DNA of 33,870 nt, from contig JAACJQ010000347.1 of the NCBI GenBank assembly GCA_016879935.1, forward strand, positions 1 through 33,870. The letters run 5' to 3'. The translations under genes were made by a program, and so were the position numbers. The notes under the pieces were generated by a model. That model searched no databases. It saw only the letters and a list, made by a program, of their open reading frames with translations, and was not told the origin of the DNA. How positions within the stretch are numbered: position 1 is the first letter of the stretch; each line of letters begins with the position of its first letter. The DNA is from Archangiaceae bacterium. GTDB taxonomy: Bacteria; Myxococcota; Myxococcia; Myxococcales; Myxococcaceae. Positions 3-17,589 of this stretch are shown here, one piece after another.

Positions 3-1287
3 CCCCTCCTGGTTCGCACGGCGCTGGAGTGGCTGTCGACGCACAAGGTGACCGTCTTCACGACCGAGCTGGCCGCGATGATGCAGCAGGTGGAGGACCC
101 GGCGCTCTCGGCCCGGCTCGCCGAGATGGGCCCGAACCTGACGACGGCGATGCGCTTCGTCGGGCGCCGGCAGGCGAAGGTCATCGTCGCGCTCGCCGAG
201 ACTGCGGCCTCGTGGCACGAGCCTCCCCTGTCGACCGCCGAAGCCGCCGCGCTCGACGCGTTCGAGGGGTCCGCGAAGCCGGCGCCGGCAGGAGACACCG
301 CTTCACTCTTCGCGAAGGTCTACGCCGCGCCCGGAGACGACTCATTGCGCGCGCTGCTCGCCGATGCCCTCGTGGCCACCGGTGACCCGCGCGGGGAGTT
401 CATCTCGATGCAGTTGCTGCGGGGCGACGCCGCTCCGTCGAAGGCCGAGAAGAAGCTCGAGGCCGAGTGGAGAGACGCCTGGCTCGGCCGCCTCGCGCCG
501 TGTTTCCGCAAAGGCGTCGTGTTTCGTCGCGGCTTCCCCGCCGAGGGCGCGTACGAGAAGAGCGGCGACCCAACGTGGCCCGAATGGGCGACCTTCGAAG
601 CGCTCGACCTCATGCCGGCGAGCGGCTTCGTCACGGGCGGTACAGGCATTCTCGTGAAGGCGCCGCTGAAGGCGCTGCGCAAGGTGACGCGCATCGGCCG
701 GCCAGTGCTCGACGAGGAGGAGGGCGAGCCATCGTTCTTCGAGCTCGATGACCTGCCCTGGCACACCGTGGGCTTCCAGTGCGTGGAGGCCTTCGTCGAC
801 GCGCTGCCGAAGCTGCTCACCGCGCGCCGCTTTCCAAAGGTGCACACGTTTCATCTCGACACGCCGCCGGGCTGGTACCCGCCCAGTGACGCCCTGCTGG
901 CGCCGCTGCTGAAGCTGCGGTGGTTCACCCAGGTGAAGCACCTCGAAGTGGCGCTCGGCCCCGGCGCGCTGGCGACCGCGCTGACGGCGAAGGTGGAGTC
1001 GCTCGTGCTGAAAGACCACGCCGGCCTCTCTCGCCGAGTACCGCGCGTCGGAGGGGAGGCTCGCGCTCGTCGTCGAAGCCATCGCACCACGCTCGCTCGA
1101 CCTGCTCGTCGCGTTGGTGCAGGCGCTGCGCGACACGAAGCTCGCCCACGTCTCCCTCGAGCTGCCCCGCTGCAAGCGCGAGGGCTCGGTGGTGATTGCC
1201 AGTGCGTACAAGAAGGTCGACCTCGCGCCGCTGCTCACGCTGCTCGAGCGCCTCGCCCCCGCGCGCCTCGACTTGCCGGAGCAATGA
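3..1287 (+). CDS. TIGR02996-domain protein, 5'-partial, apparent frameshift
   Basis: The reading frame is open from the first bases, so the true start lies upstream; the GTG at 48 is internal. Near 330-430 the protein has a segment (SLFAKVYAAP, DDSLRALLADALVATGDPRG, EFISMQL) that fits the TIGR02996 repeat-companion domain common in Myxococcota, followed by a Leu-rich region. Around 1015-1035 the sense stops in this frame (it becomes Arg/Ala-rich) and continues in the +1 frame as a normal protein (SLAEYRASEGRLALVVEAIA...) down to a TGA at 1285-1287. I therefore draw one gene with a one-base gain or two-base loss near a CTCTCTC run at 1026-1032. It could be a sequencing error or a real mutation. 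A second protein with the same domain lies at 13992-15686. The molecular function is unknown. Confidence 0.72.
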
Positions 1288-1356
1288 CGCGCGTCACGAA
1301 TGGAGGCGACGCAGTGGCCCCCATCACCACACTCGTGGGATACGTGCGGCCTCTTC

Positions 1357-1362
1357 AAGGAG
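1357..1362 (+). promoter_or_regulatory. Shine-Dalgarno AAGGAG fixing the start at 1370
   Basis: AAGGAG ends 7 bases before the ATG at 1370. It decides the start of the Cys-rich lipoprotein, whose frame is open much further upstream but only begins with a signal peptide here. Confidence 0.7.
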
Positions 1363-1369
1363 TTGCTGC

Positions 1370-2539
1370 ATGCGTCATCTGCTCTTCGTCGTGTCCATCG
1401 CGGTCGTCAGCGCCGCGGCCTGCCAGTGCGGAGGCTCGGGCAACCTCTGTGAAGCCACGAACTGCGGCCCCGGCCTCAAGTGCGACCCGAAGACGGGCGG
1501 CTGCGTGCTCGACTCCGCCGGCACGGGCGGCGGGCTGAGCGGCACCGGCGGCGGCTCCACGACGACGATGGGTGGTGGTGACGCGGGCCAGGCGGTCGAC
1601 GCTGGTGGCCTCGACTGCCCCGCGACCTGCGCCGGCAACGCGCCCATCTGTGACCGCGCGCTGGGCCGCTGCGTGGCCTGCACCGCGACGCAGGGCTGCT
1701 CCGGCTCGACGCCCGTCTGCAACCGGCTCTGGCAGGGAGGCCTCGGCCGCTGCCAGGTGTGCACCGACGACAACCAGGGCTGCGCGTCACCGACGCCGTG
1801 GTGCGACGTCACCATCACGCCGGCCGCGGGCTGCATCGGCTGCCGCTCCACCGACGACTGCCCCGTGCCCGGCACCGTCTGCGACACGTTCGGCTCGCGC
1901 ACCTGCGTGGTGAACGACGGCGGCTTTGGCGGCGGTGGCGGCGGCAACAACGGTGTCATCTGGGGCGACGGTGGCGTGACGAACCGCTGCCTGCCCGGCG
2001 CGACGCCCACGCCCACCCAGTGCACTTCGGAGTGCGCGAAGGGCTACGTCTGCCAGGGCGGGCGGTGCGTGCTGCGCGGCTCGAGCGGCCCGGTGCAGGT
2101 GACGCTCCGCTTCCCCGTCGCCGAAGACCTCGACCTCTACGTGGTGGAGCCGCTGCCCGACGCCGGCACCTGCGAAATCTACTACCAGCAGCCCGGCATC
2201 AACCCGACGCCGCCGCCCATTCCGATTCCCTTCCCGATTCCGATGCCGAACTGCGGCGCCAAGGGCTGGCTCGACCTCGACGCCAACCGCGCGTGCAACA
2301 TCGACAACGTGAACGTCGAGAACATCATCTACTCGCCGGGCATCATCCCCACGAGCGGCCGCTACGTGGTGCGCGTGAACTACTGGCAGAACTGCTCGGC
2401 GAGCATGCCCGTGCCCTACGAGGTCGAGGTGCGCGCGAACGGGCAGACGCGGTACTTCTGCGGCACGTTCCAGCCGAACCAGGCCAGCGGAGGCAGCGCT
2501 GGGGCCGGGCGCTTCGTGGCAGACTTCGTCATTCCGTGA
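1370..2539 (+). CDS. Cys-rich lipoprotein with C-terminal YfaP/DUF2135-like domain
   Basis: The product is 389 aa. It opens with a short hydrophobic signal (MRHLLFVVSIAVVSAAAC) whose Ala-Ala-Cys end suits lipoprotein signal peptidase, so an outer-membrane or surface lipoprotein is likely. Residues about 20-240 hold many Cys pairs in short modules (CxxCxxxxPxC type) with Gly/Thr-rich linkers, the style of myxobacterial disulfide-repeat proteins. The last ~150 residues look like a beta-sandwich related to YfaP/DUF2135: a VTLRFP..EDLDLYVVEP strand, a LDLDANRACNIDNVNVENI segment, then GRYVVRVNYW. That domain usually occurs in secreted proteins of unknown role. The next gene starts inside this stop codon. 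I infer a surface lipoprotein; ligand and function are unknown. Confidence 0.85.
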   Translation: MRHLLFVVSIAVVSAAACQCGGSGNLCEATNCGPGLKCDPKTGGCVLDSAGTGGGLSGTGGGSTTTMGGGDAGQAVDAGGLDCPATCAGNAPICDRALGRCVACTATQGCSGSTPVCNRLWQGGLGRCQVCTDDNQGCASPTPWCDVTITPAAGCIGCRSTDDCPVPGTVCDTFGSRTCVVNDGGFGGGGGGNNGVIWGDGGVTNRCLPGATPTPTQCTSECAKGYVCQGGRCVLRGSSGPVQVTLRFPVAEDLDLYVVEPLPDAGTCEIYYQQPGINPTPPPIPIPFPIPMPNCGAKGWLDLDANRACNIDNVNVENIIYSPGIIPTSGRYVVRVNYWQNCSASMPVPYEVEVRANGQTRYFCGTFQPNQASGGSAGAGRFVADFVIP

Positions 2540-8467: not shown

Positions 8468-9649
8468 TTAGCGCGGAAGTGAAAACGCGAAGCGCAGCGG
8501 GTTCTGGGTGTTCGAGTTCTGCGAGTCACGCAAGCCGGCGAAGCACTCGATGAGTTCGTCGCCCTGCCAAGGCCACAGCATCGCCGCGCCACCACAGGCT
8601 CCCGTGAGCGCGCCGCTCTTCTTCGACGACACCCATTCGCCGAGTGGCAGGCCCCAGACGCCAAACGAGGTGGCGTCCTTCTGCTTCGGGTCGAACGCCG
8701 CGCGGAACAGCTTCGCGCACCGGGCCTCGGCCTCGTCGGGCGTGCGGGCGTTGACGAAGGGTGAGTCGCCTCCATCGCGCGCGACGTATTCCCACTCGAG
8801 CGGGGTCATGACGCGAAAGGGCGTTCGCCGCAGCGCCTGCTCGGCCTGCTTCTTCGTCATCGGCTCGGTGGAGACGGGCGCGCGGGCACACAGAAACGGT
8901 GCGACGCCTGCGGGCGCCGTCTTCGCGGGTCCGAACAGCTCGAGCGTCGACGGCTCCTGCCAACGCAGCGATTGAGCGAGCTCCACCTCGTCGGCACGAA
9001 GCCCCGAGAGGAACGAGCCCGCCGGAATCGCCACGAAGCGGACACCGGTCGGGCGATGCAGCACCTCGGCGAGCTGCGCCTTCCCGTGGAGCGAGCCAGT
9101 CGGCGTCCAGTCGTCTCCGAGCACGTCGGCGACCTTCTCCGCCAGGCTCCTTCGTTGCGCGGGCGTCGCGGCGCGCCAGGTGTCGAGACTCGACAACACG
9201 GTGAACGCGGTTGGAGGCGGCTTTGGCAGACGAACGGTCGTGGTCTTCTGCTTCACCACGGGAGCGGCGGCACGTTCAGGTGCGAGCACGGCGATGACGC
9301 GCGCGTATTTCCGCTCCGTGGCGACGTCGAGCGCGGTCTGTCCGAACGAGTCCTTCAGCGAAGGCTTCGCGCCCGCCTGGAGCAGCACCTTCACGACCTC
9401 GGGAGCGTTGGCCTCTGCGGCGAGGTGCAACGCGCTCGACTTCCACTTCCTGCTCACGTGCTTCGCGTTGGCGCCGGCCGCGAGCAGGAACTTCACGAGC
9501 GCGACGTTGCCCGCGAGCGCCGCGTTGCCGAGCGCCGTCTGGCCCGATTCGTCGACCGACTCGAGGTGCACCCCGCGCTTCACGAGCCGCTTCACCGTCG
9601 CGACGTCGTCATCGAACGCTGCTTCGGGAAGAGCCGGGTCCTTGCGCAT
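8468..9649 (-). CDS. Ankyrin-repeat protein with C-terminal FGE/SUMF1-like domain
   Basis: The product is 393 aa from ATG 9649; sequence upstream of it in frame is not protein-like. Residues ~1-130 form three to four ankyrin repeats (GQTALGNAALAGNVALVKFLLAAGANAKH; SALHLAAEANAPEVVKVLLQAGAKPSL). After a Pro/Lys linker, residues ~200-393 resemble a formylglycine-generating enzyme (SUMF1) fold: VRFVAIPAGSFLSG, MTPLEWEYVARDGG, GVWGLPLGEWV, ending PLRFAFSLPR. The Cys-x-Gly-Gly region is reduced to ACGGAAMLW with no obvious second catalytic Cys, so enzyme activity is doubtful; many bacterial members are non-enzymatic. There is no signal peptide. It lies 14 bases after the Cys-motif membrane protein gene, probably in the same transcript. 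Confidence 0.83.
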   Translation of the reverse strand: MRKDPALPEAAFDDDVATVKRLVKRGVHLESVDESGQTALGNAALAGNVALVKFLLAAGANAKHVSRKWKSSALHLAAEANAPEVVKVLLQAGAKPSLKDSFGQTALDVATERKYARVIAVLAPERAAAPVVKQKTTTVRLPKPPPTAFTVLSSLDTWRAATPAQRRSLAEKVADVLGDDWTPTGSLHGKAQLAEVLHRPTGVRFVAIPAGSFLSGLRADEVELAQSLRWQEPSTLELFGPAKTAPAGVAPFLCARAPVSTEPMTKKQAEQALRRTPFRVMTPLEWEYVARDGGDSPFVNARTPDEAEARCAKLFRAAFDPKQKDATSFGVWGLPLGEWVSSKKSGALTGACGGAAMLWPWQGDELIECFAGLRDSQNSNTQNPLRFAFSLPR

Positions 9650-9663
9650 GCGCGCGAGGATAG

Positions 9664-10164
9664 TCAGCGCCTCGCGGCCTTGAAGGTTCGTGTCGCGGGC
9701 GTGACGGTCGTCGAGGCGGCGAGCCCACCCGCGCTCATGCCGAACAGCGCTTTGAGGTTGTCTCCGAAGAAGGTGACGAAGGAGAGGAAGACGGCGAGCA
9801 CGAAGACGAGCGCTCCCGCGACGATGCCGGTGGGTTTGCCGACCCGTCGCACCGCCTCGCTCAGGCCCACGGCCCACGCCGACGGGCAGTCCTTCGTCAT
9901 CACCGTGCCGTCGAGGCGATGGAACAGCTGCGCGCACACACGCTCGGTGCGCACCTGCTGAAAGAGCGCCACCGCCTCGGCCGTCGTCATCGCCGAGACC
10001 TTGTAGACGTGCAGGTTGCACTGGCTGCAGTGGCGCTTCTTGTCGTCGCCCTGCAGGTCGCTCCAGCGCATCGGGCACGGCGCGGCGACCTTCACGCTTC
10101 CCAGCAGCTCGAGCTCTTCGCGGGTCATGGAGGCAGTATCGAGCGGTGCCAGTGGCGCGTTCAT
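9664..10164 (-). CDS. Cys-motif (zinc-ribbon-like) membrane protein
   Basis: ATG 10164 gives 166 aa. Near residues 25-55 a signature CPMRWSDLQGDDKKRHCSQC then NLHVYKVSAMT is seen: a lone Cys-Pro and, about 18 residues on, a CxxC pair, a layout suggesting a metal site. Proteins with this C-P-x-x-W ... R-x-C-x-x-C ... V-x-x-x-S-A-M-T pattern recur in Myxococcota and other phyla without known function. A strong membrane helix (~GIVAGALVFVLAVFLSFVTFF) follows near residue 115, then a short tail. I infer a membrane-tethered protein with a cytoplasmic metal-binding head. It appears to lead the minus-strand group that continues with the ankyrin/FGE-like gene. Confidence 0.75.
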   Translation of the reverse strand: MNAPLAPLDTASMTREELELLGSVKVAAPCPMRWSDLQGDDKKRHCSQCNLHVYKVSAMTTAEAVALFQQVRTERVCAQLFHRLDGTVMTKDCPSAWAVGLSEAVRRVGKPTGIVAGALVFVLAVFLSFVTFFGDNLKALFGMSAGGLAASTTVTPATRTFKAARR

Positions 10165-10224
10165 CGACCACTCGTCCGTCGGGCGAACGACCGATGCCCG
10201 GCGCGTGTCAGCCCGCTGTGGCAG

Positions 10225-12923: not shown

Positions 12924-13982
12924 ATGTCTGCATCGACGTCATGGGTGAGTCAGGCCATCGCGCGCATCGAGGCCGACTTTCATCGCAGCGCTGACACCCA
13001 CCTCATCGCGGTGCCCGTGCCGTCGCTCTCGATGCGCGGCATCGACCTGTACCTGAAAGACGAGTCGACCCACCCGACCGGCAGCCTCAAGCACCGGCTC
13101 GGGCGCTCGCTCTTTCTCTACGCGCTCTGCAACGGCTGGCTCCGTGAGGGCGCGACGGTGGTCGAAGCGTCGAGCGGCTCCACGGCGGTGAGCGAGGCGT
13201 ACTTCGCGCGGCTGCTCGGTTTGCCGTTCATCGCGGTGATGCCGAAGGGCACCTCGCCCGAGAAGGTGGCGCAGATCGAATTTCATGGTGGCCGCTGCCA
13301 CTTCGTCGAGTCGGCCACCGAGGTGAGCGCCGAGGCGCGTCGGCTGGCAGTCGAGACGCGCGGCCACTTCATGGACCAGTTCACCTACGCCGAGCGCGCG
13401 ACCGACTGGCGCGGCAACAACAACATCGCCGAGTCGATGTTCACGCAGATGGCGAAGGAGCGGCACCACGTGCCCCGCTTCATCGTCGTCGGCGCCGGCA
13501 CTGGCGGCACGAGCGCCACCATCGGCCGGTACACGCGCTATCGGCAGTTCGACACGACGTTGTGCGTGGCCGACCCCGAAGGCTCGGTGTTCGGTGCGTA
13601 CTGGCGAACGGGAGACGTGACGCTGAAAGGAGCCGGCTCGCGCATCGAAGGCATCGGTCGCCCGCAGGTCGAGCCGAGCTTCATTCGTACGCTGGTCGAC
13701 CGCCTGCTCGAGGTGAAGGACGTGGAGTCGGTGGCGGGCATGCGGTCGTTGTCGGCGCTCCTCGGTCGGCGGGTCGGGCCCTCGAGCGGCACGAACTTCG
13801 TGGCGATGTTGACGCTGGCCGACGAGCTGAAGCGGGCGGGCGAGACGGGCTCGGTCCTCTCGTTGCTCTGCGACGCGGGCGAGCGGTACCTGCCGACGTT
13901 TCACGACGCGGCCTGGGTGAAGGCGAACATCGGTGACTGCTCGGCGGCCGAAGCGACGTTGCAGCGGCTGCTCTCGCCGTGA
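12924..13982 (+). CDS. PLP-dependent cysteine synthase/desulfhydrase-family enzyme
   Basis: The product is 352 aa, a fold-type II PLP enzyme. The cofactor Lys is K56 in [11 protein letters not shown], a substrate loop reads [12 protein letters not shown], and the glycine-rich phosphate loop is [14 protein letters not shown]. The overall order and the insertion around [16 protein letters not shown] resemble Cds1-like L-cysteine desulfhydrases (as in mycobacteria) more than the housekeeping CysK/CysM branch. The likely reaction is breakdown of cysteine to pyruvate, ammonia and sulfide, or a beta-replacement on Ser/Cys derivatives; sequence alone cannot decide. It is followed after 9 bases by the KOW/TIGR02996 fusion gene, so the two are probably cotranscribed. 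Confidence 0.87.
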
Positions 13983-13987
13983 GGAGG
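13981..13987 (+). promoter_or_regulatory. Shine-Dalgarno GAGGAGG fixing the GTG start at 13992
   Basis: GAGGAGG overlaps the stop of the PLP-enzyme gene and ends four bases before GTG 13992. It supports GTG as the start of the KOW/TIGR02996 gene and a coupled transcript. Confidence 0.65.
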
Positions 13988-13991
13988 CCTC

Positions 13992-15686
13992 GTGCGTGAG
14001 ACGACCTTGAAGCCGGGCAGCCCGGTCACCATCGTCGAGGGGCCGTTCTCGGGGCTCCCCGCGGTGCTGGTGCGCGAGACGGGCACGAAGGTGGTGCTCG
14101 AGGTGACCGTCTTCGGGCGCAACACCGAGGTGACGCTGGAGCGACGCGAGGTGCTCATGGGCGCGCCCTTGCTCGACGAGCTCGAGGCCGAGGTCGTGAG
14201 CGCGGTACGTCAACGCGAGTACCCCCAACGGTCGTTCTCGTTCTGGCGTCGCGAGCTGCGGGGCCGCGCGGAGGACCCGACGGAGGAGGAGCTGCCCGCC
14301 ATCGTGCGCCGCGCCGACGCGTTCGAGGCCGAGCTGCTGCGTGCGCTCGAACTCGAGACGGCGGCCGAGGTGGCGCGGTTTCGGGAGGCGTTCGCGGGGC
14401 TCGATGAGACCGCCCGCACTACGAAGTGGATGAAGGAGCGCGCGAGTTGGGTCGAGTGGCGCGAACAGGCGCGGGCGGTGCGCGCGGCCCTCGACGCCGA
14501 GCTTCCAGAGCCCGAGTTCGGCACGCCGGAGTTCGAGGTGTTGCACGAGCGGCAGGTGGAGCTTCGGGCGCGGGTCGAGGCGTTTCGCAGACGTGAAGTG
14601 TTCGAACGCCCGCTCGTCGACGAGCCCCGCAGTGAAGCGCTCGAGGCCGCCATCGACGCCGAGGTCGACCGCGACGACGCGTTCCTCGTCTATGGCGACT
14701 GGCTCTCGAGTCGTGGCAGCGCGCGCGGTGAGCTGATCAGTCTTCACGCCGCAGGCAGACGGGCGCCGCAGCTCGAGACGTCGCTGCTCGGTCCGCTCGC
14801 GGCGTTCGTCGAGCGGCTCGATGCCCAGTGGCGGCTCGGCTTTCTCACGCAGGTGCGGCTCGAGGCCACGCGCGATGACGAACGTGACGGGCTCGACCTC
14901 TCGCAGTTCGTCGCGAAGCTCTGGGCGTTGCCGTCGGCGAGATTTCTCCGCGAGCTGAGAGTCGCGTGCGCGTCGGCCCACGAAGACGGCGTGATGGAGA
15001 AGGTGCTCGCGACGCTCACCAGCAGCGGGCCGCGCCCCTCGATGCGCGCGCTCACGTTCGAGACGAACACCGAAGAGGAGATGCTCTCGTGGACTTCGAC
15101 GGGTGACCTCTCTGCGCTCGGTGCGGCCTTCCCGAAGCTGGAGCGTCTGTTCGTTCACGTCGGCCAGGCGCTGCTGACGGCGCCGTCGTTTCCGAACCTG
15201 CGCTCGCTCGACCTGCGCACCACGTCGCTGAGCAGTGAGCTCGTCTCGGCGCTCGCGCGCGCGTCGTGGCCCCAGCTTCGACACCTGGGGCTGTGGTTCG
15301 GCTCACGTTCGTACGGCGTGCAGGTCTCGGTGGACGACGTGCGGCCGCTGCTCGATGCGCCCCTGCCTGCGCTCACGTCGCTCGGGCTCGCCAACTCGGA
15401 GCTCAGCGACGAGCTGTGCACTGGGCTCTGTGCGCACCCACTGCTGGCGCGGCTCGAGGTGCTCGACCTGTCGATGGGCACCATGACGGATGCTGGCGCG
15501 CAGACGCTGCTGGTTCACCGCGAGCGGCTGGAACACCTGAAGAGGCTCGACGTCGACGACAACTACCTGTCCGCTGAAGCGGTCGCGTCGTTGCGGAGCG
15601 CGTTTCCCCAGCTCGTCAGCAAGGAGCAGCGAGTCGCGGAGGAATACGAAGGCGCACTGCATCGGTACGCGTCGGTCGGTGAGTAG
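13992..15686 (+). CDS. Fusion: NusG-like KOW domain, TIGR02996 domain and leucine-rich repeats
   Basis: The product is 564 aa from GTG 13992. Residues ~5-55 read like the C-terminal KOW domain of NusG: GSPVTIVEGPFSGL, then a strand/turn and VTVFGRNTEVTLERREV, the same spacing as VRV.DGPFADF...SIFGRATPVEL in NusG. Residues ~60-200 are acidic/basic amphipathic helices, probably coiled-coil. Residues ~215-255 match the TIGR02996 domain (DAFLVYGDWLSSRGSARGELISLHA). The C-terminal ~270 residues are Leu-rich repeats of the LxxLxLxxxxL type (LRSLDLRTTSLSSELVSALA; LTSLGLANSELSDELC; LEVLDLSMGTMTDAG). KOW domains bind ribosomal protein S10/Rho or nucleic acid; LRRs bind protein. No NGN domain is present, so this is not NusG. 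Function unknown. Confidence 0.85.
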   Translation: MRETTLKPGSPVTIVEGPFSGLPAVLVRETGTKVVLEVTVFGRNTEVTLERREVLMGAPLLDELEAEVVSAVRQREYPQRSFSFWRRELRGRAEDPTEEELPAIVRRADAFEAELLRALELETAAEVARFREAFAGLDETARTTKWMKERASWVEWREQARAVRAALDAELPEPEFGTPEFEVLHERQVELRARVEAFRRREVFERPLVDEPRSEALEAAIDAEVDRDDAFLVYGDWLSSRGSARGELISLHAAGRRAPQLETSLLGPLAAFVERLDAQWRLGFLTQVRLEATRDDERDGLDLSQFVAKLWALPSARFLRELRVACASAHEDGVMEKVLATLTSSGPRPSMRALTFETNTEEEMLSWTSTGDLSALGAAFPKLERLFVHVGQALLTAPSFPNLRSLDLRTTSLSSELVSALARASWPQLRHLGLWFGSRSYGVQVSVDDVRPLLDAPLPALTSLGLANSELSDELCTGLCAHPLLARLEVLDLSMGTMTDAGAQTLLVHRERLEHLKRLDVDDNYLSAEAVASLRSAFPQLVSKEQRVAEEYEGALHRYASVGE

Positions 15687-17190: not shown

Positions 17191-17589
17191 TCAGGGCTCG
17201 ACGATCCACCCGCGGCAGGTCTTCGCGCCGCAGTGGCAACGCTCCTTGAGCTCGGGCGGCAAGGCGTAGTCGTAGAACAGCTCTTCACCCGGCTCGAGGT
17301 CGCGCAGGGCCTGGAGCTGCGCCCAGCCGTTGCCCGCCTTCGTCACGCCGGCCTCGACTACCACGTTCGGCTCGCACGAGTGGTTCACCCACCGCGTCTG
17401 GTCGACCATGTCGAAGAACACGCCCGGCTCGAGAATGAGCGAGTAGGTGTCGTCGCGCCGCTCCTTCGCGCGCCACAACACGCCCTCGACGTTGGTGATG
17501 ACCGAGCCCTTCTTGCGCCGCCGCGTGGTGACGAGGCCGTAGCCCTGCACCGTCGAGCGCACCACCTTGAGCCCCGGGAGCCTCGCCAT
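17191..17589 (-). CDS. Small SET-domain protein (protein methyltransferase family)
   Basis: The product is 132 aa, essentially one SET domain plus a post-SET zinc site. GLKVVRSTVQGYGLVTTRR is the start of SET (the G-x-G turn that binds S-adenosylmethionine); VNHSCEPN (N69-H70-S-C72) and GEELFYDYA (101-109, Tyr in the active site) are the conserved core; and C118-x-C120-x4-C125 with a following GW is the post-SET Cys cluster. The family methylates Lys in proteins. Bacterial SET proteins are patchy and may have been acquired from eukaryotes. It starts three bases after the Cys-rich lipoprotein gene ends, so the two are likely coupled. The substrate is unknown. Confidence 0.88.
   Translation of the reverse strand: MARLPGLKVVRSTVQGYGLVTTRRRKKGSVITNVEGVLWRAKERRDDTYSLILEPGVFFDMVDQTRWVNHSCEPNVVVEAGVTKAGNGWAQLQALRDLEPGEELFYDYALPPELKERCHCGAKTCRGWIVEP

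Follow-up and report, generated by a model that had tools for sequence, protein, structure and literature searches.

What does a barrel of the NusG C-terminal (KOW) type do at the N-terminus of a leucine-rich repeat (LRR) protein? The question is raised by a gene of an Archangiaceae bacterium (assembly GCA_016879935.1, contig JAACJQ010000347.1, positions 1 to 33,870, forward strand); this whole stretch of 33,870 nucleotides is referred to here as the window. The features that bear on the question are as follows.

12924–13982, + strand: PLP enzyme, Cds1 (L-cysteine desulfhydrase)-like (533.9 bits; cut-off 600)
13982–13987, + strand: AGGAGG, seen in the sequence, which we take to be a ribosome-binding site; overlaps the stop codon of the PLP gene
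13992–15686, + strand: KOW–helical–TIGR02996–LRR protein; GTG start, 564 aa
14001–14153, + strand: NusG C-terminal (KOW) type barrel, residues 4–54 (profile, PDB sequence and structure-model matches)
14109–14120, + strand: VFGR loop, residues 40–43, equivalent by alignment to I164-F165-G166-R167 of E. coli NusG
14157–14627, + strand: helical linker, residues 56–212 (structure prediction, pLDDT mostly under 50; no family match)
14634–14747, + strand: TIGR02996 domain, residues 215–252 (29.8 bits, above the cut-off of 29.05)
14853–15683, + strand: STM4015-like LRR region, residues 288–564 (NF038076 STM4015, E 4.3e-55)
15660–15683, + strand: extreme C-terminus, HRYASVGE (pattern common to 25 of 28 relatives; 25 of the 33 printed)

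Domain architecture of the KOW–LRR protein

The order KOW, helical region, TIGR02996, LRR is as good as certain. The initial annotation had read the first 50 or so residues as the KOW domain of NusG, and the profiles bear it out. Residues 4–54 align with positions 117–169 of the 172 in NCBIfam TIGR00922 (nusG), at E 1.2e-5 when residues 1–69 are submitted and at 5.2e-4 with the whole protein. A phmmer search of the PDB with the KOW region returned 23 matches, of which the 18 best are NusG, the top one being the M. tuberculosis NusG CTD 2mi6 (E 1.2e-4). Against a NusG-CTD profile built with the query excluded, the protein scores 39.3 bits, whereas none of 20,000 shuffles exceeds 12.8; the window's other open frames do not match this profile. 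The UpxY family is matched as well (E 4.7e-5). On the other hand, Pfam KOW (PF00467) does not match residues 1–58 up to E 10 and its curated cut-off is not reached. The second half of the same reading, a KOW without an NGN domain, holds equally: the nusG profile is matched at positions 117–169 only, and Pfam detects no NGN. Among the features of the NusG family, the protein thus has the C-terminal barrel and lacks the N-terminal NGN.

Does the fold agree? The initial annotation had proposed a structural comparison with the NusG and RfaH CTDs and the Spt5 KOWs. AlphaFold, given an alignment that contains NusG rows, predicts a barrel for the 60-residue domain at pLDDT 85, and the best solved match of this model is T. 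maritima NusG (Z 10.6, 1.2 Å over 54 residues). Other NusGs and the RfaH CTDs follow, and Spt5 KOWs, NdhS-type barrels of cyanobacteria and ribosomal proteins come not far below; the KOW barrel of Kin17 is also similar. Since NusG rows guided the model, the NusG fold match is partly circular and is not independent evidence. A full-length model made without these rows has the same KOW strands, at a low-confidence pLDDT of about 45–67. In a tree the domain groups with specialised NusG paralogs rather than with NusG, a placement without support (55/26). It shares at most 37% identity with the KOWs compared, lies on an end branch of 1.85, and is two residues shorter between strands two and three than the NusG of the same genome.

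The stretch that follows had been called coiled-coil-like and placed ahead of TIGR02996 and LRRs. The two latter domains stand; the middle is predicted to be helical, at low confidence. Residues 56–212 match no family, gave weak partial matches alone among 96 genomes of the family, and gave none among 195 of the phylum. The LRR region scores 186.8 bits with NF038076 (STM4015), whose cut-off is 275, and is therefore related but outside the curated family. Even so, the last 277 residues match the profile nearly end to end, including its last residue. The nearest solved structure is B. fragilis 2ra8 (sequence E 3.4e-21, fold E 7.9e-13), followed among the fold matches by LRRs of the NLR and ribonuclease-inhibitor types. 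PADLOC returned no match for the protein.

The extreme C-terminus lies beyond the confidently modelled repeats. Its pattern, RY-x-x-[VIL]-[GAS]-E, recurs in the STM4015-like relatives counted above, which suggests a conserved free tail serving as a binding or processing signal. In Salmonella, STM4015 is neighboured by genes of the radical SAM and ATP-grasp families; a scan of 11 genes of the window gave no match to either. In two plasmid records an STM4014 gene adjoins an STM4015-like match.

The N-terminal head and its possible partner

What stands in the place of the KOW in related proteins? We compared 29 STM4015-like proteins, namely that of the window and 28 with long matches, from other genomes or from this one; short or weak matches (L007–L012, L028–L035) and matches without a locus were left out. 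All 29 match STM4015 and 28 match TIGR02996. WGR is found in 19 and a nusG-type KOW in one, the window protein, which has no WGR. As the N-terminal sequences of the relatives place WGR ahead of TIGR02996, the KOW occupies the position usual for WGR. We conclude that it replaces the WGR module usual in close relatives, a point that the initial annotation missed. A further STM4015-like protein (L002:697–2544) seems, on visual inspection, to carry a barrel of the OB or S1 type in its N-terminal part.

TIGR02996 itself has undergone a strong lineage expansion in this genome, with 63 matches as against 15–37 in six congeners and none in 14 control genomes. A census of 46 of the 63, two of them in the window and one of these the KOW–LRR protein, found WGR, FHA, WD40 and kinase domains in two proteins each and KOW in one. 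On inspection by eye, FHA lies N-terminal to TIGR02996 in both proteins that have it. Examples that carry FHA, WD40 or protein kinase domains beside TIGR02996 in this genome are L153, L144 and L143, among others. The second TIGR02996 protein of the window (48–1538, + strand; domain at 294–416) seems by eye to have lost the frame of its LRR near residue 335. The window also encodes an ankyrin-repeat protein (8468–10171, − strand) and a small SET-domain protein (17191–17589, − strand).

That TIGR02996–LRR proteins carry an exchangeable docking head is somewhat favoured, mainly because the KOW sits in the WGR position and because sister proteins with FHA, WD40 or kinase domains exist. We infer that such heads dock on machines of the cell. 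The window protein would then be a product of domain shuffling within a large bacterial TIGR02996–LRR group that has expanded in this lineage, and would be laid out as an adaptor: an N-terminal head would sit on a cellular machine, TIGR02996 would serve as the joint and the LRR would bind a client. If this is true, it gives TIGR02996–LRR proteins, which are abundant in the genus, a first functional handle: they would form a set of adaptors, each using an interchangeable head (WGR, FHA, WD40, kinase, KOW) to deliver client proteins to a given machine of the cell. The KOW is a head of known binding habit and so allows a testable guess at the role of such heads, one that rests on a single sequence.

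On which machine might the KOW dock? According to PMC7593976, the loop with which E. coli NusG contacts Rho contains I164, F165 and G166, and the numbering used there places IFGR at residues 164–167. PMC11711091 presents NusG(F165A) as a variant that can interact with RNAP only. The F165 of PMC6624301 is a residue of NusA, and that paper was set aside. Where housekeeping NusG has IFGR, the window protein has V40-F41-G42-R43. Of 17 NusG-like KOWs in viral contigs, 15 have the phenylalanine of this column; it is absent from all five NusG paralogs of the phylum that were fetched, whose loops read LLCR, LLGR, ILGR, LLQR and LLGR. Because the fusion is known from one sequence, no residue is backed by conservation.

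Retention of VFGR favours, but does not show, S10 or Rho as the partner. The initial annotation had suggested docking on either, and judged from sequence the idea seems reasonable, because the barrel belongs to the NusG C-terminal type and keeps the loop with which E. coli NusG touches Rho. The likeliest mode would be docking on ribosomal protein S10 (NusE) or Rho through V40-F41-G42-R43, and we name this pair of partners tentatively. As NGN is absent, the head would not be expected to bind RNA polymerase. Translating ribosomes or Rho might thereby receive the client of the LRR, or the head might compete with NusG for its site. The best explanation overall, namely that domain shuffling has produced an adaptor with a KOW for docking on S10 or Rho, stands in our judgement at an even balance. 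Its most specific form, an LRR adaptor that a borrowed NusG tail tethers to the ribosome (S10) or to Rho and that acts without RNA polymerase, is speculative and in itself improbable.

Might the barrel bind something else? The KOW could be an adaptor of a general kind, or a barrel for binding nucleic acids, that has assumed the nucleic-acid role of WGR, its partner being neither S10 nor Rho. WGR is the usual module of the closest relatives, as counted above, and for bacterial PARPs a DNA binding site in WGR is described in PMC5966428; moreover, similarity to the model extends to the KOW barrels of Spt5, Kin17 and ribosomal proteins. However, NusG CTDs rank first by sequence, and what has been retained is the loop that NusG uses for protein contacts. 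We consider this alternative rather unlikely.

Distribution of the fusion and its genomic setting

How widespread is the KOW–TIGR02996 order? The initial annotation took the fusion as a clue to the TIGR02996 family and proposed to look for the same order in Myxococcota; neither expectation was borne out. In 96 genomes of the family the N-terminal 212 residues found no second fusion: besides the protein itself there were three weak matches, one a NusG by sequence (L044) and two that cover part of the helical region, in proteins that look unrelated. Nor was a second fusion found in 195 genomes of the phylum at E 5e-4. The other phyla were covered only by the genome_contigs, viral contig and plasmid sets. 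None of these three holds the fusion; the first yielded three Corallococcus WGR relatives, and 14 plasmid records match the LRR part only.

The converse search, with the barrel, agrees. Among 71 distinct TIGR02996 or STM4015-like proteins (75 rows, the window's two included), the NusG-CTD profile matched only the KOW–LRR protein. With the query included, a KOW profile was searched against 193 genomes of the phylum, and 34 of the 47 genomes with at least two matches were searched again. The other matches listed are NusG, NusG paralogs (five checked) and short frames that are possibly ribosomal L24; two large proteins that look by eye like AsmA/TamB are chance matches. A few of the NusG-scoring matches among those listed sit in long open frames (at most 478 aa). 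In the literature searched, no paper names TIGR02996, and nothing on this architecture was found under STM4015, WGR with LRR or MoxR, or KOW with LRR. As far as searched, the fusion is private to this genome.

Is it then simply young? A recent private gene fusion, intact for want of time to decay, would leave the KOW with little or no function. The single occurrence in the family and phylum genomes agrees with this, as do the expansion of TIGR02996 here and a sister genome that has no KOW–LRR gene beside the same PLP enzyme. Yet the barrel has diverged strongly while its frame, fold pattern and loop are retained, as would hardly be expected had NusG been copied very recently. We judge such a fusion unlikely.

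What role might be played by the PLP enzyme? As first reported, its gene lies nine bases ahead of the start of the KOW–LRR gene, and the two are probably co-transcribed. A link between them had been suggested as well, with a search for a conserved upstream PLP gene. The enzyme occurs in two of the 96 family genomes (seven genomes of the genus were also searched). The second of these keeps the Maf and PLP genes with no KOW–LRR gene after them, and among the matches listed for the KOW–LRR protein in that genome none lies on the PLP contig. There, the gene that follows the enzyme looks by eye like a LuxR-type regulator. No conserved partner gene was found beside the KOW–LRR gene. A working partnership, for example in regulating cysteine breakdown, has on its side the short gap and a ribosome-binding site that overlaps the stop codon; the enzyme's rarity, and a KOW–LRR neighbour confined to the window, make it very improbable, and we have rejected it.

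Finally, the fusion might be an artefact of start site, frame or assembly, as its single occurrence in a 445-contig draft could suggest, but the gene lies well inside its contig, an in-frame stop stands three codons upstream of the GTG with no alternative start in between, AGGAGG lies four bases ahead of the GTG, and codon composition is even across the joins, so that this explanation is the least credible of all. GC at codon position 3 is 0.80–0.98 in 11 of 12 segments (at most 150 bases each) and 0.64 in the last, short one; no frame break was found from 13992 to 15686 by this measure, and because it is even along the gene, the domains of the 564-residue protein lie in one frame. The open reading frame is thus present as first described. 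The initial annotation had feared a fusion unique to this assembly through a start-site or frame error: the uniqueness holds as far as searched, whereas the error is rejected as very unlikely.

Comparison with known systems

The NusG CTD (for example PDB 2mi6, 1nz9, 2xhc) shares with the window KOW the barrel fold, the GPF turn and the FGR loop. The window domain differs in its N-terminal position, in having no NGN, in being two residues shorter and in its fusion to TIGR02996 and LRRs. The NusG paralogs (UpxY and RfaH type) retain the NGN that the window protein lacks; conversely, the five fetched from the same phylum have lost the phenylalanine of the FGR loop, which the window KOW keeps as F41.

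With the STM4015 family (NF038076) and B. fragilis 2ra8 the common ground is the LRR region, the window protein falling below the cut-off of that family. The WGR–TIGR02996–LRR proteins of Myxococcaceae (for example Corallococcus loci L045–L047) have the same TIGR02996 joint, LRR and C-terminal RY-x-x-V-G-E, at 38–40% identity over the TIGR02996–LRR part. Their head, however, is WGR and they have no helical arm, whereas the window protein carries a KOW head on an arm of 150 residues.
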